From: a virus
Direction: 5' to 3' (one strand)
Length of the DNA: 31,639 bases
IMG/VR virus record: IMGVR_UViG_3300035670_000891
Span: 1-31,639 of that record
In this document: positions 1,675-28,073 of the stretch, piece by piece
Position numbering within the stretch: position 1 is the first letter of the stretch
How the letters are laid out: each line of letters begins with the position of its first letter
The notes under the pieces: model-generated
Seen by the model: only the letters and a program-made list of their open reading frames with translations
Databases searched by the model: none
What the model was told of the DNA's origin: nothing
Made by a program: the position numbers and the translations under genes

Positions 1675-4161
1675 TCATGAGGCTTTCTTCAAAAAGTTGG
1701 ATTGAGACTTGGCCCACTTGATATTTTCATGGGTTATCCAGTCCTTCACTGATTCAATCATAGGGCCAGCAACCTTGTCCAATTGATTTGATGGATAGCA
1801 ACCAACCATATTTTTATACTTGTGATACGCGGCACCATCCTTCATGCCTTTGGATCGAGTCCAACTCAGGAGTGCGCTGTAAATGGCCTGCTTATCCTCC
1901 AAGCTGTATTTCCTAGCCTTCCTCGATAGCTGTACAAGTTCCTCGTCTTCAACCTCTTGCGGCTTTGCAACTGGCTTAGGCTCAAAGGAACAGACGGGAC
2001 ACTTGCGTAATGACGGCTTATAAACTGCAAAGCACGATGGACAGACTCGCGGCAACCGTTCATTCTTCTTTTCCTCCTGTTTAGGCTTCCCATCATCAAG
2101 CTCGTAGGGTATCTCTTCTGTCGGCCATCCCAATCTGCGGACTACTCCGGCATGGTCGAGAATTAAGGCTCTTTCCTTGCCATCATGGGGACGAAGCACC
2201 CGGCCACACATTTGAATGAATCGAATCAATGACTTAGTAGGTCTAGCCAGGATGCAGCATGAGGTAGCAGGTACATCGAACCCCTCGGCAAGCATCGAGC
2301 AGTTGCTCAGAATAGTGAATTCCCCGCGTCTAAAGCCATCTATGAGCGGTTTTCGTTCCTCTTCTGGCATGTACCCATCAACGTGTCGAGCATCTATGCC
2401 CTGGGCGCGAAATTCTTCAACGATGTGCTTTGAGTGCATGACATTGACCGCGAACACGACAGTCTGCTCTCCCTGGGCCAACTTAATCCAGTGCTTGACG
2501 ATATCCCCAACCAGTTTGCCCTTATCCACTGCCTTACCTAGCTGAGTCTTGTCATAGTCCCCGTTGGTGATTTTGATCTTGTCGAGTTCTGGTTCTGATG
2601 GGGCGTATATATCGACATCAACCAAGAACCCTTGTTCAATCAGCATAGGGATTGAGGCTCCTGTCACCAAGTCCTGCCAGAGCGGCTCGCCTCCGAGCCA
2701 TGAGTGCTTCGCAGCCATCGCCTTTGCCCACGGTGTAGCCGTCAGGCCGATGATGATGCAGTTGCTATGGAGTTCTATCAACTTGTGGAATGCCTTGCTT
2801 GCCGGGGTCGTGTGGCACTCGTCCAGGATCAAAATTTCGAACATGTTGTACTTGCGCCGAGCCATTGTCTGAACCGAGCAGACGACGATCTGTGAATTGG
2901 CTTCCCATGTGTTCATCCCTTGCATGATGCCAACCTTCATACCGAGCTTTTCAAATGCTGCAACGGATTGCTTGATGAGTTCGATTCGGTTGCAGACAAA
3001 AGCCACACGCTTACCGTTGGCTACTGCCTTCTGGATTATGTCTGCTGCCACGCGGGTTTTTCCTGAATTATGCGTAACAGTGAAGTCTCCCATAAGATAC
3101 CTATGATTACCATCCACTTCCCACCCGTAGTAGTCATCCTCGACAAGAATCTCAACTTTGAACCCTGTGCGAAGTACAGACTTCTTTTGCAGCCTATTGA
3201 ATGCCTTATGCTTGACCGTTAGCATATTTGAAAAATCGCCAGAGATTGAGACTCGATAGTAAATCCCTCCAGCCCCTGTCTGACAATACTTTTCAGATTC
3301 GCTTTTGTACGCAGAAAAACCAAGCGACCTAGCCACAAAACAAACATCATCAGCCAATCGTTCAGACTTGCTTATCCAGTCGTAATGACCATTGCCAAGA
3401 TGACAATCAGTATCCAGCAATCCTGCAAGCACCTCATACCGCGCCTCAACAGATGCCGTTTTATATTGATGTGGGATAAACTTTTCTCCAGCAGTTGTAC
3501 CCATCAATCCAAGATTTCTTAGCTTAACAGTTAGCGGATTACCTACGCCTCTTGGATTGGTCAAATTCACTAGATCACATTTATCAGACTTGGATACCCA
3601 TCCTTGAACATCTGTAGCCAATTCTATGATTCGATCTTGGATTGCTCTTTCTGGATTTGATATTGTCGGTGAGCCACCACCTAAACATCCATCACCAATC
3701 AATGCGCCTAGAAGCCAAGGATGAATTGGCAAGTCATCATTTCCACCATCAAAATTTTGAACACAAACACGATAGAGTTTGTGGCAATGCTTCCTCCACT
3801 GAGACCACCCTAGCCATTCATTCACCGATACATCAACAACCTCGCCAGTCTCGGTATGCACTAATGACAAGATATGCCCTAGATTGACAACGAATGACTC
3901 GCCTTTTACCGGGATTACCATAGCCATCTGCTGACGACCACGATGAAGATTTAGCACCGTCCTGAATGATCCATCATCGCCAATCAATTTGTCACCGATT
4001 CCAACATCCTCGGCAACCTTCATTGATCCATCGGCCATCAGTATTTTCTGGCCTTTGGCATGGCATCCAGTTGGCATCACCATGACAACCCGCTTCTTTC
4101 CTTCCCGAATCTTCTCCCGCAACTTCTCGATACCAGACTGCTGATACCAACGCAGTTCCAT
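1675..4161 (-). CDS. SF2 DNA helicase interrupted by an intein
   Basis: The translated precursor has 828 aa; the spliced enzyme would have 495. Helicase landmarks, in precursor numbering, are: Walker A split as MPTG (29-32) and SGKT (366-369), DECH box 447-450, TATP 474-477, motif VI QMCGRVLRP 650-658, and a C-terminal zinc ribbon with C707-x2-C710 and C721-x2-C724. This layout fits phage DEXH helicases of the RecQ/UvsW/D10-like type that unwind replication or recombination intermediates. The start at 4161 (MELRWYQQSG) is preferred because AAGGAGAGGCAA precedes it; the frame is open to 4275 but without support. It is the first long gene of the leftward replication operon, with the cassettes and primase downstream. 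Activity should depend on intein removal, because the ATP-binding loop is interrupted. Confidence 0.9.
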   Translation of the reverse strand: MELRWYQQSGIEKLREKIREGKKRVVMVMPTGCHAKGQKILMADGSMKVAEDVGIGDKLIGDDGSFRTVLNLHRGRQQMAMVIPVKGESFVVNLGHILSLVHTETGEVVDVSVNEWLGWSQWRKHCHKLYRVCVQNFDGGNDDLPIHPWLLGALIGDGCLGGGSPTISNPERAIQDRIIELATDVQGWVSKSDKCDLVNLTNPRGVGNPLTVKLRNLGLMGTTAGEKFIPHQYKTASVEARYEVLAGLLDTDCHLGNGHYDWISKSERLADDVCFVARSLGFSAYKSESEKYCQTGAGGIYYRVSISGDFSNMLTVKHKAFNRLQKKSVLRTGFKVEILVEDDYYGWEVDGNHRYLMGDFTVTHNSGKTRVAADIIQKAVANGKRVAFVCNRIELIKQSVAAFEKLGMKVGIMQGMNTWEANSQIVVCSVQTMARRKYNMFEILILDECHTTPASKAFHKLIELHSNCIIIGLTATPWAKAMAAKHSWLGGEPLWQDLVTGASIPMLIEQGFLVDVDIYAPSEPELDKIKITNGDYDKTQLGKAVDKGKLVGDIVKHWIKLAQGEQTVVFAVNVMHSKHIVEEFRAQGIDARHVDGYMPEEERKPLIDGFRRGEFTILSNCSMLAEGFDVPATSCCILARPTKSLIRFIQMCGRVLRPHDGKERALILDHAGVVRRLGWPTEEIPYELDDGKPKQEEKKNERLPRVCPSCFAVYKPSLRKCPVCSFEPKPVAKPQEVEDEELVQLSRKARKYSLEDKQAIYSALLSWTRSKGMKDGAAYHKYKNMVGCYPSNQLDKVAGPMIESVKDWITHENIKWAKSQSNFLKKAS
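3067..4065 (-). mobile_element. LAGLIDADG-type intein in helicase Walker A loop
   Basis: The insertion spans 333 residues (helicase precursor 33-365). It starts with the splice cysteine in CHAKGQKILMADGSMKVAED (blocks A-like) and has a block B-like segment VVNLGHILSL. It ends in YLMGDFTVTHN, with the penultimate His and terminal Asn needed for Asn cyclisation; the next extein residue is Ser. Two dodecapeptide-like segments, LLGALIGDGCL (intein residues about 118-128) and LAGLLDTDCHL (213-223), mark a LAGLIDADG homing-endonuclease domain. The second has Cys where Gly is usual. The insertion point, between MPTG and SGKT, is a favoured intein site in P-loop ATPases. Confidence 0.9.
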
Positions 4162-4274
4162 TTGCCTCTCCTTATGCCTCCTTGTGAGCGCCGAATTTCT
4201 TTCTGCGCTTGAGTGTTGATTTGGATTTTTGCCGACAATTCTCAGCAAAACCTTGCCATGAGCACGTTGAATCA

Positions 4275-4310
4275 AAAGTCAAAGGCAAAGTCAAAGGCAA
4301 AGTCAAAGGC
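4275..4310. repeat. Three perfect copies of a 12-base repeat
   Basis: AAAGTCAAAGGC occurs three times head to tail at 4275-4286, 4287-4298 and 4299-4310, about 110 bases upstream of the helicase start. It may be an iteron-like binding site, or simple slippage. Confidence 0.85.
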
Positions 4311-13755: not shown

Positions 13756-14090
13756 TTCAAAATCTCCATTGCTTCTGCTTGTGTGATATCTAAGCCGTAC
13801 TTCTCGGCAATGAACTTGGCGAACATGGCTTCGTTTCCGGGGTTGTACTTGAGTTGGACGCGGTATGCCTCAACTTCGCACTTCAAGCGGTAGCCTTTGT
13901 CGAACGTGTAGCGCAGGGCAAAGATCGGCGGGAAGATGTTTCGCCATGCTTGACGGACGTGGGTTTGCTCGTGCGCGAGAAGGCCATCATCCCCCTTAGC
14001 ATCAGGGTGGATAAAGATGAACGGGATCAGGAACACCTTGACGGTGCCGGCATGGCCGTTCAGGAAGCGGGTTGTGTAGATCGGTTTCAT
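13752..14090 (-). CDS. Small HExxH metallopeptidase-like protein, 112 aa
   Basis: The segment LLAHEQTHVRQAW carries an HExxH zinc motif (H40, E41, H44), and a third ligand candidate, E74, lies in CEVEAYRVQ. A compact domain with HExxH and a downstream E-x-x-A-Y helix resembles a minimal gluzincin. A hydrophobic strand, VKVFLIPFIFIHPDA, precedes the motif. It is encoded between the tail fibre and the endolysin, overlapping both by 4 bases. It could process a virion protein or contribute to cell-wall or envelope damage, but no substrate can be read from the sequence. Confidence 0.65.
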   Translation of the reverse strand: MKPIYTTRFLNGHAGTVKVFLIPFIFIHPDAKGDDGLLAHEQTHVRQAWRNIFPPIFALRYTFDKGYRLKCEVEAYRVQLKYNPGNEAMFAKFIAEKYGLDITQAEAMEILK

Positions 14091-16447
14091 TTGGCTTCGA
14101 GGGCGGTGAGGCGAGCCTCAAGTGATTCAATCGCCTTCTTCTGACGCTGAACGACATCAATCAGCAGAACCGTCAGTCGCTCATACTGCATACCTTCTGC
14201 AACCTTGTCTGCATCTGTGTCAGGCACTTGCTTTGTCGTGGCCTCACGCGCAGGGATCGCTGCTTCAACTACATTCCCTTCATCATCCAGCACGGCTGGG
14301 ACTTCATCGGTGGCGGGTTGATCCTCGACGATTTTTGTTGGGTAGGCCCAATGCACCAAACGCGGGTCGAGTTCAGCAACCTCCTCCGCGATAAGGCCGT
14401 ACCAAGACCACCCCTTATTGTCCCCCTCACACTTGCTGCGATACCAGACGGGGCGCATCTGGTGAATCAAATCCGCATATGCCGAATCAAGAGGCTCAAT
14501 ATCAGTCTTGTATTTGAGAGAAGAGGTTGATCGCTTGAACTGTCCTGTGGTTTCAACGAAGCAGTTTGCTGCTGATGCTGTGGTAACACTGTATGCAGCA
14601 GGGACAATCAAATTCCCCGATGCGTCGAGGGTCATTGCGGCATTCCAAGTGATATCACTATCCGCTGCCCCCGTATCGGCTTGGTTGAATACTATTTTTC
14701 CATCACTGCCGCGCACATCAATAGCTGCTGCATAATGGTTCCCGCCTTCGGCTTGAATGCGCTTCCAAGCAGACCCGTTGTAATAAGCGTTGGCTGTCAA
14801 ATATACATCAGGTGACGTACCTAAAGTATTCCCGCCAAGAGCGCCGCCACTAGCTATCTGGAACCCGCGAACAATACTCCAAGCGCTCGGCGTCACCCCC
14901 AAGCCCAAATTCCCCGATGCGTCGATGGTCATTTTGTTCGATAATGCTGACCCGTTCCACGTACCCCAAGTAAACCCTCCGCCACTCCCAGCGCCTTTCG
15001 CGTTTATGAATGCCGTTTCACCGCCTCCGCTAGAGGCGTTCCAGCACATGATCGACGCGCCGGCAGTTGTCGCATCGCCTGCGAATCCACTGGACTTGTT
15101 GCCGTACAGATACGTCAACCCATCAGAACTAAGCCCACCTGATGTTTGAAGCGCCCCGTAGAATAGGGCGTTCGTTCCTGCGTCGTAGAACTCAAGTAGT
15201 TTTTGTCCTGTTTTGCTAATACCTGCGGATGTATTAGCCTCAGTACCAAAGTTGCCAAAATAGTAGGACGATCCTGCGGTTTTAGACCCGTACTGGTAGG
15301 TAGATGCGGCTGCGCTACCAAGCGTCAGCGCCCCCGTCACCGAGAGGCCGGTGGAGGAGAAGGTGGCTCTATCGCCGCCGCCAGCGTATATCCCCATCGA
15401 ATCTGCGGCGTGGTTGTAGGTAATCTGACCTGGGATTGAGGTTGAATTGGCTTTATTGAAGCCTAGCCAGCCTTTGCCTGTGGCATTGGTAACAACAACT
15501 AAACCAGAGTTGTCTCCAGTTGTTGCATCTGCTGTACCGATAACGACATCGAACACCGAATTTTGGCTTGATGCGTTTCCAAACGTACCAACACCACTAA
15601 ACGTCCCGCTCCCCGCCGTAAGTGCGCCTGTGCCGATGTTGAGCGATGGGTTGCCCGATGATGTGATGTTGCCACTCAAGGTCAAAGCGGGTAGCGTCAA
15701 GCCTGTCGTGGTGACTGTGCCGTTGATGGCGGGGGAGGTGATGGTCTTGTTGGTGAGCGTGTCAGTCGTCGTACGTCCTACATAGGTGTCCGTACCTTGG
15801 AACGTCAGCGTAGTCGAATCAGTACCGGCTAGTGTCAGGCTGTTGTTCGCCGTCAGCGTCTTGCCATCGGCCACCGTCAGCGTAGCACCTGTAGCCGGCG
15901 CTGTGATCGCTACCTTGTTGATACTTGTTGCAGTCGCCACACCAAGAACAGGCGTGGTGAGGGTGGGGCTGGTTCCAAACACCAAAGCACCTGAACCTGT
16001 CTCGTCGCTAATCACCCCAGCCAATTCAGCAGAAGTCGTAGCGGCGAAGTCACTCAGTTTGTTTCCAAGAAGTGCCACCGTTCCATCTGCATCCGGCACA
16101 GTAAGGATTGAAGTCTGCCCCCCTGTAATCGAGGCGAGCTGGAACTGCATCTGCTTTGTTGGGTCAGTATTATCCTGAAATGTTGTGCTGGCATCCAGCG
16201 ATGTAATCGACACCCCGGCAATTGAGCCGCCTGTGATCGCCACGTTGTTACTGTCTTGAGTGGCAAGCGTACCAAGGCCAAGATTGGTGCGTGCGCCTGC
16301 TGCGCTGTTAGACCCTGTACCCCCGTTGGCTACATCAACTGTGCCGATAACTGCATGGTCATCATTCCAGTTTGAAGGCTGGATCAGAGAAGTATCTTCA
16401 CCATCGGGTTTTGAGCTTACAAAAGGATGGGTGATCGTGATAGCCAT
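14087..16447 (-). CDS. Tail fibre with C-terminal S74 self-cleaving chaperone, 786 aa
   Basis: The N-terminus (MAITITHPFVSSKPDGEDTS) and the VANGGTGSNSAAGARTNLGL repeat are typical of phage fibres. The centre is a long low-complexity beta region rich in Thr, Gly, Ser and Ala. From about residue 640 the protein has the peptidase S74 intramolecular chaperone: STSSLKYKTDIEPL with the expected catalytic pair S642 and K647, then WYGLIAEEVAELDP, and a C-terminal coiled coil (IESLEARLTALEAK). The chaperone drives trimerisation and then cuts itself off just before the serine. It probably binds the host surface. Its start overlaps the stop of the upstream gene as TAATG. Confidence 0.88.
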   Translation of the reverse strand: MAITITHPFVSSKPDGEDTSLIQPSNWNDDHAVIGTVDVANGGTGSNSAAGARTNLGLGTLATQDSNNVAITGGSIAGVSITSLDASTTFQDNTDPTKQMQFQLASITGGQTSILTVPDADGTVALLGNKLSDFAATTSAELAGVISDETGSGALVFGTSPTLTTPVLGVATATSINKVAITAPATGATLTVADGKTLTANNSLTLAGTDSTTLTFQGTDTYVGRTTTDTLTNKTITSPAINGTVTTTGLTLPALTLSGNITSSGNPSLNIGTGALTAGSGTFSGVGTFGNASSQNSVFDVVIGTADATTGDNSGLVVVTNATGKGWLGFNKANSTSIPGQITYNHAADSMGIYAGGGDRATFSSTGLSVTGALTLGSAAASTYQYGSKTAGSSYYFGNFGTEANTSAGISKTGQKLLEFYDAGTNALFYGALQTSGGLSSDGLTYLYGNKSSGFAGDATTAGASIMCWNASSGGGETAFINAKGAGSGGGFTWGTWNGSALSNKMTIDASGNLGLGVTPSAWSIVRGFQIASGGALGGNTLGTSPDVYLTANAYYNGSAWKRIQAEGGNHYAAAIDVRGSDGKIVFNQADTGAADSDITWNAAMTLDASGNLIVPAAYSVTTASAANCFVETTGQFKRSTSSLKYKTDIEPLDSAYADLIHQMRPVWYRSKCEGDNKGWSWYGLIAEEVAELDPRLVHWAYPTKIVEDQPATDEVPAVLDDEGNVVEAAIPAREATTKQVPDTDADKVAEGMQYERLTVLLIDVVQRQKKAIESLEARLTALEAK

Positions 16448-22585: not shown

Positions 22586-23392
22586 TCACCACCCGCGTAA
22601 TCCACTGGTATAACCAGTTCCACCAGACACTATCTGCCCTGTGTCCTTATTGAAAGCCCCTGCACCACTAGCGAACGACCAAGGATTAGCCTTTGCAGCA
22701 TCAACACTACGATCTGACCCATACCGAGAGGATGCTGCACTTTGCTCAGACCCGTACATACTACCTAGCAGACTGGCAAGCGTACTACCCTTCTGTGAAT
22801 GCGCCTGCATATTAGTCCCGTAGATATTCGCAGCAGACTGTAGGTTCGCCCCTTGAGCTTGATTCCAATTCGTAGAGTAGTTATTCAATAATCCAGATAG
22901 TCGAGTGGCCTGATTGTCGTACTCCTGCGAAGCCATATCCTGGCCATACTTCGTTAGCTCCATCAGTCTGTTTCCAGACCCAAGCATCCCCTTAGCAGCT
23001 TGTTGGCGCTGTAGTGCCTGTTCACCTTGCCCAAGCCGGAACTTATACGCAGCAGATTGTTGGATGCTAGAAGGGTCATCCAACAAACTACTCATTCGGC
23101 TTTGGGCATCCGAAAGACCAGTCTCGAATCTATTCTGCTCATTGGTTGGCGCGGTATAAGTAGGTGCGGCAGACGAGTTCCAATCATTGAATTGTGTCTG
23201 AGCACCCGTGCTTGCTGTGCCTATCGCTGGTTGAGCTGGCTGATTTGGAGATGAAGCGATTGATGGCGACCCAACCCCACCAGCGCGGGAAGATTCGCTA
23301 TATCCAGAGCCAACAGGGGCTGCCAGCCACGAGTCGAGCATAGCTGCTCCTGGAGTCATTGCAATGCTAGGTGCGTTCCATCTAAGCGCCAT
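22586..23392 (-). CDS. DNA-transfer/ejection protein, 268 aa
   Basis: After a flexible, Ser/Pro-rich N-terminus, the conserved core reads AAYKFRLGQGEQALQRQQAA, then KGMLGSGNRLMELTKYGQDM and ASQEYDNQATRLSGLL. This is a strong signature of a phage family usually annotated as DNA transfer or gp7-like ejection protein, in which A-x-KGMLGSG and ASQEY are nearly invariant. The C-terminus is Gly/Ser-rich. It is the first of three ejection-type genes downstream of the gp10-like genes. A GGGGTAGATT site precedes the ATG. Confidence 0.78.
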   Translation of the reverse strand: MALRWNAPSIAMTPGAAMLDSWLAAPVGSGYSESSRAGGVGSPSIASSPNQPAQPAIGTASTGAQTQFNDWNSSAAPTYTAPTNEQNRFETGLSDAQSRMSSLLDDPSSIQQSAAYKFRLGQGEQALQRQQAAKGMLGSGNRLMELTKYGQDMASQEYDNQATRLSGLLNNYSTNWNQAQGANLQSAANIYGTNMQAHSQKGSTLASLLGSMYGSEQSAASSRYGSDRSVDAAKANPWSFASGAGAFNKDTGQIVSGGTGYTSGLRGW

Positions 23393-23402
23393 AATCTACC
23401 CC

Positions 23403-25100
23403 TTAATCATTAATTTCGAGACCTTCAAGTCTCAAGTTCGCGTCTTTAACGTGCAACAACTCAAAAGCCCTGCGGTTGTAATTGCCCAACCTTCTAATCC
23501 TTGACCTATTTGCACTTAGGTCTATCGGCCTAAACGTTGAGTATGTTACATAATCATCATCCGTATATCTAGCCAACAGTGTTGATTCAATCTTGTCACC
23601 AACCACTTCAGCGTAGGCCATGAATTTAGGGGGAATGCTACCATTGTCTAACTTTGGTGTTCTGACCCTTGCTGCGATAGCGCCAATCGCATCAGCGTAT
23701 TCGCTTGAGGTGAATTCATACAGTACCCCGTTAGACCTTCCTTGCATGTACTGAACTCCCCCAACATCAGCAGAGGACACAACAGGGAAGTACGTTTCAA
23801 GGTATACCGCAGCAGCACCAGCCCCGCTGAAAGCCGTACCAGTCGCTTGTATTTGGAAAGTATTTGCAGTCACAGCGGTAGCAACATGCCATCCATCAAA
23901 GTCAGCACCTGTGTCAGCCACCTTCACTATCGCCCCGTCAAGCAATCCGTGGGCCGAGGATGTAACGACACCTTCCGCAGTTATCGCGCTAATCGTCTTG
24001 ACGCTTCCAGAGTAATTTAGGTAGCTGAATAATGACCATTGCTGCGTAGTCAAATCATACACCAAAGTTTTTTCTGTGGTAACAAGCGTGATTCCATACA
24101 GCGCATGTGACCCAACTTGAGAAAACCATGAATGTACCTCAGACAATCCATCTTGCCCGATGTACTTTTCTATTGCTGGCGTTGAGATTTTCTGAGGTGA
24201 CGTACCAGTTAGTGTGAATACAGAATATCCTGACCCATTCTGCGCCTTCCCGATAAATACAACTGAGCCTCCCCCTATGTCCTGTATTGCACCATCCGTA
24301 GCACATCCTATCTGCACGTTAGCATTTTGCACAGGAGAAAGAACTGATCCAACCGGATTACCGGCGTTGTAGAAGAACTCAATCGAACGCTCCTTGAACG
24401 CTACGATATATGACCCACTCTTTGCGATTGCGACCCCCCTGCTTGGGTCGTATTGAGACTGTATGAAATCAAGCGAACTCCATGTAAGCGGGTCTTCCAG
24501 CGCCGATTGATTTATCTCGCCCTTCGGTGTCATCACGAAGAAGAACCCGTCAAGGAATACAACGCCGCGAACAGTATTGATCGGGTAATCTACATCTGTA
24601 ATTTGCGTGATAGCGTATAGATTAGAGCCTGTTTCAGCGTAATCCGTAGGTGTTTCTCCATCCTCAGCTTGTGCAAAGGCAACATAGACTTCATCACCAG
24701 AAACCGCAATCTTCACTCCGATATTTAGGTTCCCAGAAACTACACCTGGAAGGTCATACCTAACCCACGAGGCTGTGATGGACTTTGCTACCCATGCAAC
24801 ACCATCAATCATGATACTTACTGCACCAGCACCCGTCTTCCGCTTCAGGTATATGCTGAATACTCTGTTGAGGTTTGATCCAGCGAAATTAATCACTTGC
24901 TGAAGCGTAGCGCCTGCCCCGGTAGCAGTTGCTGTGTACGCCTCTGTACCGCCGTCTGGATCAGTCTGCCCTGCTGTAACCGAGAGCTTATACTTAATCC
25001 ACGAATCGGCAGAGAAATCTGAAGAATTAACGACGCGATTTACGCTCTCGGTCAGTACCCAAGCAGCAGTCGCAGATTTAATAAGAAGTTTCTTGCTCAT
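23403..25100 (-). CDS. gp10-like packaged-DNA stabilisation protein, C-terminal partner, 565 aa
   Basis: Residues about 160-365 carry the core of P22 gp10-like neck proteins: YAITQITDVDYPINTVRGVV, FLDGFFFVMTPKGEI, WSSLDFIQSQYDPSRGVAIA, AFKERSIEFFYNAGNP and SPQKISTPAIEKYI. Residues 1-155 are a carbohydrate-binding-like beta sandwich (NSSDFSADSWIKYKLSVTAG...FAQAEDGETPTDYAET), absent from typical gp10. Residues about 370-440 are an inserted domain with SSAHGLLDGAIVKV, similar to one in the gene at 27174. The usual gp10 N-terminus is missing and is found on the gene at 25097-26470. The ATG at 25100 overlaps that gene's stop as ATGA. Confidence 0.78.
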   Translation of the reverse strand: MSKKLLIKSATAAWVLTESVNRVVNSSDFSADSWIKYKLSVTAGQTDPDGGTEAYTATATGAGATLQQVINFAGSNLNRVFSIYLKRKTGAGAVSIMIDGVAWVAKSITASWVRYDLPGVVSGNLNIGVKIAVSGDEVYVAFAQAEDGETPTDYAETGSNLYAITQITDVDYPINTVRGVVFLDGFFFVMTPKGEINQSALEDPLTWSSLDFIQSQYDPSRGVAIAKSGSYIVAFKERSIEFFYNAGNPVGSVLSPVQNANVQIGCATDGAIQDIGGGSVVFIGKAQNGSGYSVFTLTGTSPQKISTPAIEKYIGQDGLSEVHSWFSQVGSHALYGITLVTTEKTLVYDLTTQQWSLFSYLNYSGSVKTISAITAEGVVTSSAHGLLDGAIVKVADTGADFDGWHVATAVTANTFQIQATGTAFSGAGAAAVYLETYFPVVSSADVGGVQYMQGRSNGVLYEFTSSEYADAIGAIAARVRTPKLDNGSIPPKFMAYAEVVGDKIESTLLARYTDDDYVTYSTFRPIDLSANRSRIRRLGNYNRRAFELLHVKDANLRLEGLEIND

Positions 25101-26470
25101 GTCACACTCTGGGCAAAGTCGAAAAAGTCTCCCGATAGCGCCGCAAAATTGCGCGTCCCGATAAGATCGAAATACACTGCTGTAAAACCTGTGTTGTAGT
25201 AGTCTTCGAGGACGCAAAAAATGCGCTCCTTATTTACCGGGGATACTACCGACCTGACAACTTGGTCCCCTGTTAGGCGAAACGTCTTGATGACCCCTTT
25301 CCCATACTCCCAAACCATCAAGTCTTTACCTTCGGATGATGAGAAAGGGAACGCATCAGCAACCACCACAACAGTACGCCCATCTGAGCTAACCGCCAAT
25401 ACGTCGCTATTGTAGGTCAAACTCTCATGCCCTATGTCGTACACCTCTGAATCGGAATACCTTGCAAATGCTCTATATGCCCCCTCACCGCCAGCAACTT
25501 CAGCCGTCCCAAAAACTGCGCTACCATTGTCAGACAGAAAGAATGGCAATACCGTATCGTAGGAAGTTGCAGGACTGTAAAACTGAGACATAGTTAGTGC
25601 CTGTACGTCATCCTCCTCAGTCCAGATAAAAGGGCCGTTTGCTGTCGAATACCACCCAACTACCGTAGTGCCATCTCGACTGCACACGCCATACCTTGCG
25701 TCTGCTATTGACTTAAGCAATGTGTTATTTTTATATACTTCAACGCTGTATGTAGGGTGTTCAACTTTTCGCATACAGAGGGTTGAAAGGTCAGCAGACG
25801 CGCTAGTAAGATCAGGCGAAGCCGCAAGTGAGTCATACACCACAACGACTGCCGCGCCGTAAGGATACACCTCTAACTTGTGTGCGATAGCAGTTTTATA
25901 AGCAACCGCCACGCTCATCCCGTCATCTGAGCAGATTAGACCATTGCTAGTAACCCAAGATATGCTTGCAATAGACTCTTCTCCATCGTCCTCAGACCAC
26001 CGTGTTAGCGCATTTGCGCCGCCTGTGGATATGAACGCATAGGCAACTCTGCCATCATCACTGCAAGCTATGCTGCTGATAGCTCCATACCCTGAAAAGA
26101 TTGTCGAATCAGTCCAATCTGTTGTGTCCCATCTTGTAACCCCAGTTCCTGCAAGATTGATGACGAAGATATATCGCATATCCCTCGACACCGTGATTGT
26201 CTGAACGCTCGTGTCCTCAATCAATTCCGGTGCATACGCATTCTCTTGCACGAACAGGTTAGCCCCGTATACCGACAGTAGCTTACTGTTAAAACTAACA
26301 AGACCACCACCTTTAGCATCAGCAGAAACAATCTGGTTCAAGACTAGCGCCGGACGGACTGCACAGATATTCCCAGAAGCCGACTGTTCACTAAGAACAT
26401 TGACCATTGCAGAATCTTTGTTCTCGATGCCGTCTCTAGTCTCTGTTGGTGCTATCAGTGGTAGTCTCAT
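25097..26470 (-). CDS. gp10-like N-terminus fused to beta-propeller-like domain, 457 aa
   Basis: The first 75 residues (MRLPLIAPTETRDGIENKDS...VNVLSEQ...VRPALVL...GLVSFNSKLLSVYG) match the start of gp10-like packaged-DNA stabilisation proteins. Instead of the gp10 core, a propeller-like series follows, with repeated SxDG turns: VSRDMRYIFVINLAG, CSDDGRVAYAFIS, CSDDGMSVAVAYK, CSRDGTTVVGWYS, LSDNGSAVFGTAE and VSSDGRTVVVVAD. Six such blades are visible. The gp10 core continues in the overlapping downstream gene, so the two proteins probably assemble as one neck component. The start overlaps the previous stop as TAATG. Confidence 0.72.
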   Translation of the reverse strand: MRLPLIAPTETRDGIENKDSAMVNVLSEQSASGNICAVRPALVLNQIVSADAKGGGLVSFNSKLLSVYGANLFVQENAYAPELIEDTSVQTITVSRDMRYIFVINLAGTGVTRWDTTDWTDSTIFSGYGAISSIACSDDGRVAYAFISTGGANALTRWSEDDGEESIASISWVTSNGLICSDDGMSVAVAYKTAIAHKLEVYPYGAAVVVVYDSLAASPDLTSASADLSTLCMRKVEHPTYSVEVYKNNTLLKSIADARYGVCSRDGTTVVGWYSTANGPFIWTEEDDVQALTMSQFYSPATSYDTVLPFFLSDNGSAVFGTAEVAGGEGAYRAFARYSDSEVYDIGHESLTYNSDVLAVSSDGRTVVVVADAFPFSSSEGKDLMVWEYGKGVIKTFRLTGDQVVRSVVSPVNKERIFCVLEDYYNTGFTAVYFDLIGTRNFAALSGDFFDFAQSVT

Positions 26471-27165
26471 TACTGATCGCTCTCAATGTTCGACCCCATG
26501 CTCGTCAAAGGTACGAGGTCGGTGTAGCTGATAATATGACGATGGTTAGCCCGCTTGATGTTTGCTAGAGACTCAGTAGCAATATTGGCTACCTCAGGAG
26601 ATACACTCCTCTCAAACTCAGGGGCAATCTCGATAGCAAGGTTGTAGGCCAATGCCCGCTCATATCCGGGCGGGAAGGCTACAGTCGTACTCAACGAAGC
26701 AAGGGTACTTACAGGGACGGCAAAGACTACATGAAGAACATGCCCGGTACTCGGCACAGGCCAAAGGTTCAACACACCTGTCGGATAGGATGGCTCGTAG
26801 TACGCCAGTTCAGGGATGTCGCTGGATGTGGTCTTGTCAGCGATTGCAAACCACCGAGTCTGATCCACCAACTTGATTTGGTAATCAATTTCACTAGCCC
26901 GCACATAGATGTTATCTATGCTTAGTGGGCGTGTGTCGATGTTGGGCGTAGTTCCACCGAGCGTGATGGTGGAGTCACCTGCTATCAGCGTAAAGGTCTT
27001 GTCTTGTAGTGCGTAGCCGATTGGCTTGTCAGTCTGCCACGACTCGATCATGGCATTCAGCGCAACCAGCCCGTCCTGAGCGTAGGACTCGTTAAGGCTG
27101 TCTCCAGACTTCACCATCCCGATAAGTCGCTGCGCTCGTCCTACTATGTCACGGGCTGTTGCCAT
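26470..27165 (-). CDS. gp4-like head-completion/tail-accessory protein, 231 aa
   Basis: The sequence begins MATARDIVGRAQRLIGMVKS and continues with LVALNAMIESWQTDK and a C-terminal PPGYERALAYNLAIEIAPEF. These are features of P22 gp4-like proteins (packaged-DNA stabilisation, portal adaptor): an N-terminal helical pair with LN-x-MI-x-SW and a conserved PPGY-x-RAL-x-x-NLA-x-E helix. It binds the portal ring and provides the platform for gp10. A second, longer copy lies immediately upstream at 27174-28073. The GAGGTGAT ribosome-binding site overlaps that gene's stop. Confidence 0.8.
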   Translation of the reverse strand: MATARDIVGRAQRLIGMVKSGDSLNESYAQDGLVALNAMIESWQTDKPIGYALQDKTFTLIAGDSTITLGGTTPNIDTRPLSIDNIYVRASEIDYQIKLVDQTRWFAIADKTTSSDIPELAYYEPSYPTGVLNLWPVPSTGHVLHVVFAVPVSTLASLSTTVAFPPGYERALAYNLAIEIAPEFERSVSPEVANIATESLANIKRANHRHIISYTDLVPLTSMGSNIESDQ

Positions 27166-27173
27166 ACATCACC

Positions 27174-28073
27174 TCACTGTTGTTGCGGCATTTGCGGCTT
27201 AGTAATAACAGACCCAGTTAGCCTTGCACTATTCAGTTGCATGAGTGATTGCAGATTCTGCTGAAGATTACCAACAACCTCTTCTGCAATCTTGGCTTGG
27301 AACTCAGGGGCAAGCTCAAGCGCAAGCGCAAGCTCAAGCATACGACGATAGCCAGGAGGAAGAACCTGATCCGTACTCAGTGACGCATATTCCTGAATCG
27401 TCCGCATGTACTTTACATGAAACTCAGGGGTTCCTGTGGGCGGTGGATTGACGAACAGCAGACCAAACGGGCTACTAGCACGATAGAGAACTTTGGTCGG
27501 AGCCGCAGCAGTAGTGGTCTTGTCAATCAGGTTAGTCCAATACCCCTCAGTCACAATTCCGATTGGCGTATCAACACCATCAGCGCGAGAGAATGCACCC
27601 GTCAGCTTTGTCGGACGCGGCACTTTGAAGTCGCCAGAGGTAAATACAAGCGTACCTGTTGCTGGCGTTACAGGATCATTTGCCACCGCATAGGTGAAGG
27701 TTTTTGGCCCAGTTACCGTGATTGCAGCGGTCTTGTTGTAGTCAGCCTGCCCAGCCCCTGACACAGTAACCTTGCATCCAGTCTCAAGGCCATGCGGCTG
27801 TGCCGTAGTAACTGTCGCAACGAGAAGGGTTCGAGTAATGCTTGAGATAGCCATCGAATCGTCGCCAATTGCATACACTGCTTGAGATGCAGTCATGGTA
27901 ATCGACTCGTCCTGCTCACAATAGTTGAGCGGCATGGTGATTGTCCAAGAGTCAATGACTGAGTTCAGGCTATCAAGGCCATCATTCAGTTCAACACTGG
28001 TAGGAGATTCGCCGGATGCGATAACGCCTAAAATACGCATCGACTTGCTGATAATTGCTTGGGCTGTAGCCAT
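27174..28073 (-). CDS. gp4-like protein with inserted beta domain, 299 aa
   Basis: Both ends match the gp4 family: MATAQAIISKSMRILGVIAS and LDSLNSVIDSWTITM at the N-terminus, and LPPGYRRMLELALALELAPE near the C-terminus. Between residues about 76 and 148 there is an extra domain with VATVTTAQPHGLETGCKVTV...SGAGQADYNKTAAITVTG...KTFTYAVA. This is the pattern of the FCCH-like beta modules sometimes inserted into phage virion proteins. The related 231-aa protein next to it lacks the insert. One of the two may bind the portal and the other form a second ring, but which does which is unknown. GGAGTAATCATC precedes the start. Confidence 0.78.
   Translation of the reverse strand: MATAQAIISKSMRILGVIASGESPTSVELNDGLDSLNSVIDSWTITMPLNYCEQDESITMTASQAVYAIGDDSMAISSITRTLLVATVTTAQPHGLETGCKVTVSGAGQADYNKTAAITVTGPKTFTYAVANDPVTPATGTLVFTSGDFKVPRPTKLTGAFSRADGVDTPIGIVTEGYWTNLIDKTTTAAAPTKVLYRASSPFGLLFVNPPPTGTPEFHVKYMRTIQEYASLSTDQVLPPGYRRMLELALALELAPEFQAKIAEEVVGNLQQNLQSLMQLNSARLTGSVITKPQMPQQQ

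Follow-up and report, generated by a model that had tools for sequence, protein, structure and literature searches.

A gp10-family tail hub encoded by two overlapping genes, with adhesion-type domains beside the cut

A P22-like podovirus encodes its gp10-family tail hub in two adjacent genes, one for the N-terminal half and one for the core. The gene fission is real and recurs within this known hub family, and exchangeable domains of adhesion type lie next to the cut. In P22-like tails gp10, normally a single chain, is the hub that lines the channel and retains the DNA. Here we describe the gene pair in a 31.6 kb IMG/VR virus record (the window, meaning the whole stretch of DNA analysed), which carries a P22-like podovirus module at its right end on the minus strand. 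The reading we favour, at a probability of roughly 0.78, is a two-gene podoviral hub of the gp10 family (P22 gp10/Sf6 gp8/Hc3), built from two-chain protomers that would be joined by strand exchange and bearing exchangeable adhesion-type domains that may bind glycans.

Results

Gene pair and genomic setting

The minus-strand genes run portal, scaffold, P22-type coat, two small ORFs, two tail adaptors, the 457/565-aa pair, a DNA ejection protein and more genes (Table 1). In profile searches the portal gene matches P22_portal (1.2e-59) and the coat gene is of P22 type (PF11651, 2e-18). The order is that of the gp10/head closure Hc3 family, namely portal, scaffold, coat, adaptor, hub and ejection proteins. 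The possession of two adaptor paralogues is shared with Phi-GT1-like and Bcep22 phages, for which dual adaptor (tubeA) genes are reported (PMC10386132). The first of the window's tandem paralogues has an E1_FCCH-like segment inserted.

The original prediction described two overlapping genes with products of 457 and 565 aa, and the two ORFs and these lengths were confirmed, as was an ATGA overlap of 4 nt at 25100–25097. Both genes of the pair have weak Shine-Dalgarno pairing (−2.7 kcal/mol for the 457-aa gene, −2.6 for the 565-aa gene), whereas pairing is strong (−7.8 to −8.8) for both adaptor genes and the two genes directly downstream of the pair. We infer from this pattern that the 565-aa gene is likely translated by reinitiation at the ATGA, and the two genes are probably translationally coupled. 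A single polypeptide is usual in the gp10 family and is what the window lacks; a single chain is not essential to the family, however, because 13 non-redundant relatives also do without it.

Two further minus-strand genes of the window deserve mention. That at 1675–4275 looks like an intein-bearing helicase, with a Hom_end_hint match (2e-17) at aa 71–139 ahead of the helicase part at aa 404–798; its ORF starts with TTG and the true start may be elsewhere. The gene at 14087–16447 encodes a virion protein of 786 aa with a Peptidase_S74 endosialidase chaperone domain at its C-terminal end; the protein is therefore probably a tail fibre or spike that cleaves off its own chaperone.

Table 1. Features of the hub region and extra N-module genes of split relatives
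Feature	Position	Strand	Basis or remark
Tail adaptor paralogue 1 (299 aa)	27174..28073	-	phrog_12985, 3.7e-38
Tail adaptor paralogue 2 (231 aa)	26470..27165	-	phrog_12985; 1-nt overlap with 457-aa gene
Gene for 457-aa N-half of tail-hub protein (gp10 N-terminal module, inserted propeller, one hub strand)	25097..26470	-	
gp10 N-terminal module, aa 1–75 (start of platform and hub blade 1, by homology)	26246..26470	-	single-gene N-terminal HMM
Inserted beta-propeller-like domain, about aa 88–440, SxDG repeats	25151..26209	-	motif counts, AlphaFold2, Foldseek
C-terminal strand FFDFAQSV, aa 449–456, strand a of hub blade 2, putatively donated in trans	25103..25126	-	alignment to L019 model
ATGA stop/start overlap of both genes	25097..25100	-	weak Shine-Dalgarno (−2.6 kcal/mol)
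Gene for 565-aa C-half of tail-hub protein	23403..25100	-	
Strands b and c of hub blade 2, KKLLIKSATAAWVL, aa 3–16	25053..25094	-	alignment
Head-spike fibre domain (NF048003, carbohydrate-binding-like), aa 17–158, between strands c and d	24627..25052	-	absent from sister L016
gp10 core, aa 159–565: remaining hub propeller with Ig-like insert and C-terminal platform part	23406..24626	-	phrog_578
DNA ejection protein	22586..23392	-	phrog_598, 1e-8; 10 nt downstream of hub genes
Extra N-module genes	L012 4204–4581; L016 1989–2276; L017 3205–3456		and in eight more split loci

The two halves of gp10

The gp10 N-terminal signature assigned to the 457-aa product is borne out. An HMM built from the first 95 residues of 23 single-gene relatives, and from no split ones, matches residues 2–84 (E 6.5e-14, 47.7 bits), against 8 bits for the best of 1000 shuffles of the protein. 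The N-terminal module of the family, comprising the start of the platform and blade 1, is therefore present, but on a separate polypeptide. The gp10 core lies on the 565-aa product, as had been claimed, with a match to phrog_578 (head closure Hc3) over profile positions 118–344 (E 1.6e-37) and one to PDB 9vyg, 'Stabilization protein' (1.6e-4). A profile built from relatives matches the hub chains of P22 gp10, Sf6 gp8, Pam1 and Pan3. Since phrog_578 is matched only from position 118, the beginning of the family is missing here; it is found in the 457-aa gene. The evidence supports a gp10 divided over two adjacent genes, with grafted domains that are both of adhesion type.

The first of these domains fills most of the 457-aa protein, where six SxDG blades had been counted. 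A propeller is supported at the level of blades, but the strict motif occurs only four times (137, 181, 264 and 361), with at least two degenerate copies, at 95 (SRDM) and about 315 (SDNG). A relaxed count of 5 was reached in 0 of 5000 shuffles (mean 0.44). AlphaFold2, run on the chain alone with an alignment deep only in the N-module, places blade-like strands across residues 89–447 (pLDDT 63.6, pTM 0.40). The Foldseek matches listed from the PDB are beta-propeller proteins or assemblies containing them, at TM-scores of about 0.1–0.4. The modelled insert is likely a beta-propeller; at a pTM of 0.40 the model supports blade-like units rather than a given number of four-stranded blades closed around a centre. 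In searches of phage records and IMG/VR the 457-aa protein had kin for its N-module only; nothing matched the protein as a whole, and the inserted propeller had no sequence relative. A Pfam JAB match to this protein was weak (E 0.025, below cut-off) and was dismissed.

The second grafted domain, preceding the core on the 565-aa protein, had been called carbohydrate-binding-like and can now be named as the RcGTA-type (GTA) head-spike fibre domain NF048003. The match spans residues 17–158 and is near full-length (profile 4–174 of 182), scoring 59.7 bits against a curated cut-off of 36. In RcGTA the domain resides on the capsid spike, whereas in the window it lies inside a tail-hub protein. The RcGTA head-spike fibre gives better binding to cells with capsular polysaccharide (PMC10218006); by analogy, the grafted domains may contact glycans.

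Position of the break

The closest relative on the core tree, the sister locus L016 (support 100/99), shows how nearly continuous gp10 is across the junction. Its core gene begins MTYDFAQGEDMTTLFLKTTTNAYTF and reads YDFAQGEDMTTLFLK unbroken where the aligned window has FDFAQSVT* / MSKKLLIK. In the window FDFAQSVT ends the first protein and MSKKLLIKSATAAWVL starts the second; the YDFAQ of L016 is inside its core gene, and the start methionine of the 565-aa protein aligns with an internal methionine of L016.

The structural context of the break comes from L019, a natural single-chain fusion of 918 aa. In its model, residues 1–75 and 416–918 form one fold at pLDDT of about 85–95. The best PDB match of the whole model is P22 gp10 (8eap, E 1.5e-18), with the Pan3, Sf6, Pam1, SU10 and T7 hubs or nozzles lower; normalised by target length, TM-scores to P22 gp10 reach about 0.6, a disordered insert bringing them down. 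Strands named from the secondary structure of this model, not from coordinates, are a (402–405), b (416–419), c (424–427) and d (432–434), preceded by a blade-like group at 53–74. By alignment to these strands, therefore, the propeller follows blade 1 and precedes strand a of blade 2, the genes part in the a/b turn, and the head-spike domain is inserted after strand c and before d. The placing of new domains at the break was inexact, since the propeller, the break and the head-spike domain are set apart by short pieces of gp10. When the 457-aa chain was folded alone by AlphaFold2, its last residues, the proposed strand a, formed a low-confidence helix. In the solved Pan3 hub (9vyg) the corresponding hairpin lies in one chain, GPVSFAAIEDELLVCAGESIWSYDG.

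The same a/b hairpin is broken in L013, L048 and L057, which belong to a distant clade. In the clade of EBPR podovirus 1 the break precedes strand a of blade 2.

Split and single-gene relatives

A core-alignment scan returned 80 loci, from which near-copies were removed before tree building. The resulting core tree has 59 rows, 14 of them split (window included), 43 single-gene and two of unknown state, and requires at least five changes between split and single-gene forms, all forced by well-supported branches. The 13 other non-redundant split loci include L016 and EBPR podovirus 1, and their junctions range from a 4-nt overlap up to a 146-nt gap. A tree of the N-module, with few columns, places that of the 457-aa protein with those of L016. 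In the isolate Alcaligenes phage QDWS535 the hub position is occupied by a single gene of 491 aa, adjoining a likely adaptor gene. A pattern scan found no core relatives in GTDB genomes, and so no prophage or host, and a literature search found no paper on a split gp10.

L015 was considered as another split and rejected, its gp10 being whole and the 679-aa ORF in question having no gp10 module at its start. This ORF (590–2629, MW202573) lies between adaptor and gp10 and is annotated 'DNA repair protein'.

The original prediction further held that the insertions had created the break. Comparison with relatives upholds the homology of the gp10 halves and speaks against insertion as the cause of fission. 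L016 is split without the head-spike domain and has an unrelated insert, and L048, cut at the same hairpin as the window, has a 114-aa N-gene with no insert. Conversely, four relatives have inserts at the window's insertion site in one unbroken gene: repeats that resemble propeller blades by eye in L019, a Sortilin-Vps10 match in L022 that meets its cut-off only in part (29 bits against 33), SPRY in L024 and LamG in L047. Hence, insertion neither requires nor causes fission. Inserts in split genes include SPRY in L026, L033 and L046 and a Gly-rich domain in L013.

Some single-gene hubs (L021, L024, L025, L030 and L047) are 1023–1065 aa long, over double the size of P22 gp10; they contain several Ig-like repeats and, in those inspected, inserts of SPRY or LamG type.

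Extra N-module genes

An additional gene starting with the gp10 N-module is present in 11 of the 13 other split loci and in 0 of 44 single-gene loci, 35 of which have at least 1 kb of upstream sequence. These genes encode 81–126 aa in ten loci and 241 aa in L048. The window has one N-module gene only and no second. Because gp10 sequences had contaminated the adaptor HMM, only those of its matches that covered whole adaptor genes were used.

In trees of few columns the two N-module copies group together in L016 and in L023, and in the EBPR/L017 group they tend to cluster by type; this mixed grouping makes several duplications likely. Six short N-module genes keep 45–72% of residues while synonymous sites are saturated, which argues that they are under constraint. 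Saturation of synonymous sites between split loci also meant that dN/dS was computable for few pairs only, with values of 0.07–0.23 where defined.

Discussion

We propose that a single ancestral gp10 gene was cut at the a/b hairpin of hub blade 2. Termination–reinitiation at the ATGA would yield two products in matched amounts. The 457-aa chain would begin the platform and contribute blade 1 together with strand a of blade 2, leaving everything else to the 565-aa chain. Since the halves would supply complementary parts of the hub, each protomer would be a two-chain complex held by strand exchange, with presumably six protomers beneath the adaptor ring. The propeller and head-spike domain would emerge from the blade-1/blade-2 region and act as exchangeable contacts with the host surface, probably with glycan. 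In the SU10 nozzle the channel is lined by blades 4–6, and blades 1–3 are distant from the axis (PMC9509320), so domains leaving blades 1–2 would be exposed.

The pair resembles P22 gp10 (8eap, 8u10, 8tvr), Sf6 gp8 (7sg7), Pam1 (7eeq), Pan3 (9vyg) and phrog_578 by core homology. With these hubs it shares the site between adaptor and ejection genes and, by the model of L019, the fold. P22 gp10, Sf6 gp8, Pam1 and Pan3 differ in being single chains of about 440–472 aa, with no room for a propeller or head-spike domain. The SU10 and T7 nozzle proteins are likewise propeller hubs with a platform and with domains inserted into the propeller (PMC9509320), but each is one chain, and SU10 has Ig-like domains inserted between blades 2 and 3. 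EBPR podovirus 1 (gp31-gp30-gp29, JF412294) also has gp10 as an N-module gene plus a core gene in the same gene order, and its genes are annotated only as 'stabilization protein' and hypotheticals. It differs from the window in the break before strand a of blade 2, in its inserts and in a second, short N-module gene.

Because gp10 is nearly uninterrupted across the junction, the same picture would result from a small indel located within a few codons, and a sequencing or assembly error beside the ATGA could have split a single gp10 gene. Such an error would have to hit this few-codon stretch and yet leave an ATGA whose start aligns with a methionine of L016. Moreover, L016 and 12 further non-redundant loci are also split, many with junctions not explicable by one indel. 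Judged from these 13 loci, an error joining the frames, which the original prediction named as its hazard, seems very improbable. A programmed −1 frameshift, joining the frames into a single product of about 1000 aa and leaving the two-gene form as a by-product, is rejected as scarcely credible. The second frame is indeed −1 relative to the first and open for 39 codons upstream of its ATG, but no canonical slippery heptamer is seen by eye at the junction, slippage upstream would destroy the strand-a sequence, and the device would be unusable at those junctions of split relatives that have gaps of 3–12 nt or 146 nt.

A different view of the 457-aa protein makes it a separate neck or tail accessory, for example an additional ring, that reuses the N-module as an anchor. 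The N-module is a portable unit, and eleven split relatives have two N-module genes, so that in those phages one copy or more may have no part in completing the hub. Against this, the end of the 457-aa protein can be aligned with sequence of the hub, and because the window has only one N-module gene, its 565-aa hub would be left without its blade-1 partner and part of the platform. We consider an accessory role improbable and prefer the two-chain hub. An extension of that hub, in which fission made the N-module a freely duplicable adaptor, is doubtful; phages of these lineages would then assemble mixed hubs, with paralogous N-modules bearing different adhesion domains at equivalent ring positions, and so obtain a receptor platform at the tail hub that is both combinatorial and exchangeable.

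That one-gene and two-gene forms have changed over at least five times, and that SPRY, LamG, Gly-rich or propeller-like domains are exchanged at a site next to the cut, suggests a hub that itself serves as a host-contact platform and a gp10 N-terminal module that is a building block in its own right. Extra N-module genes recur in split loci alone and pose a testable question of hub stoichiometry.
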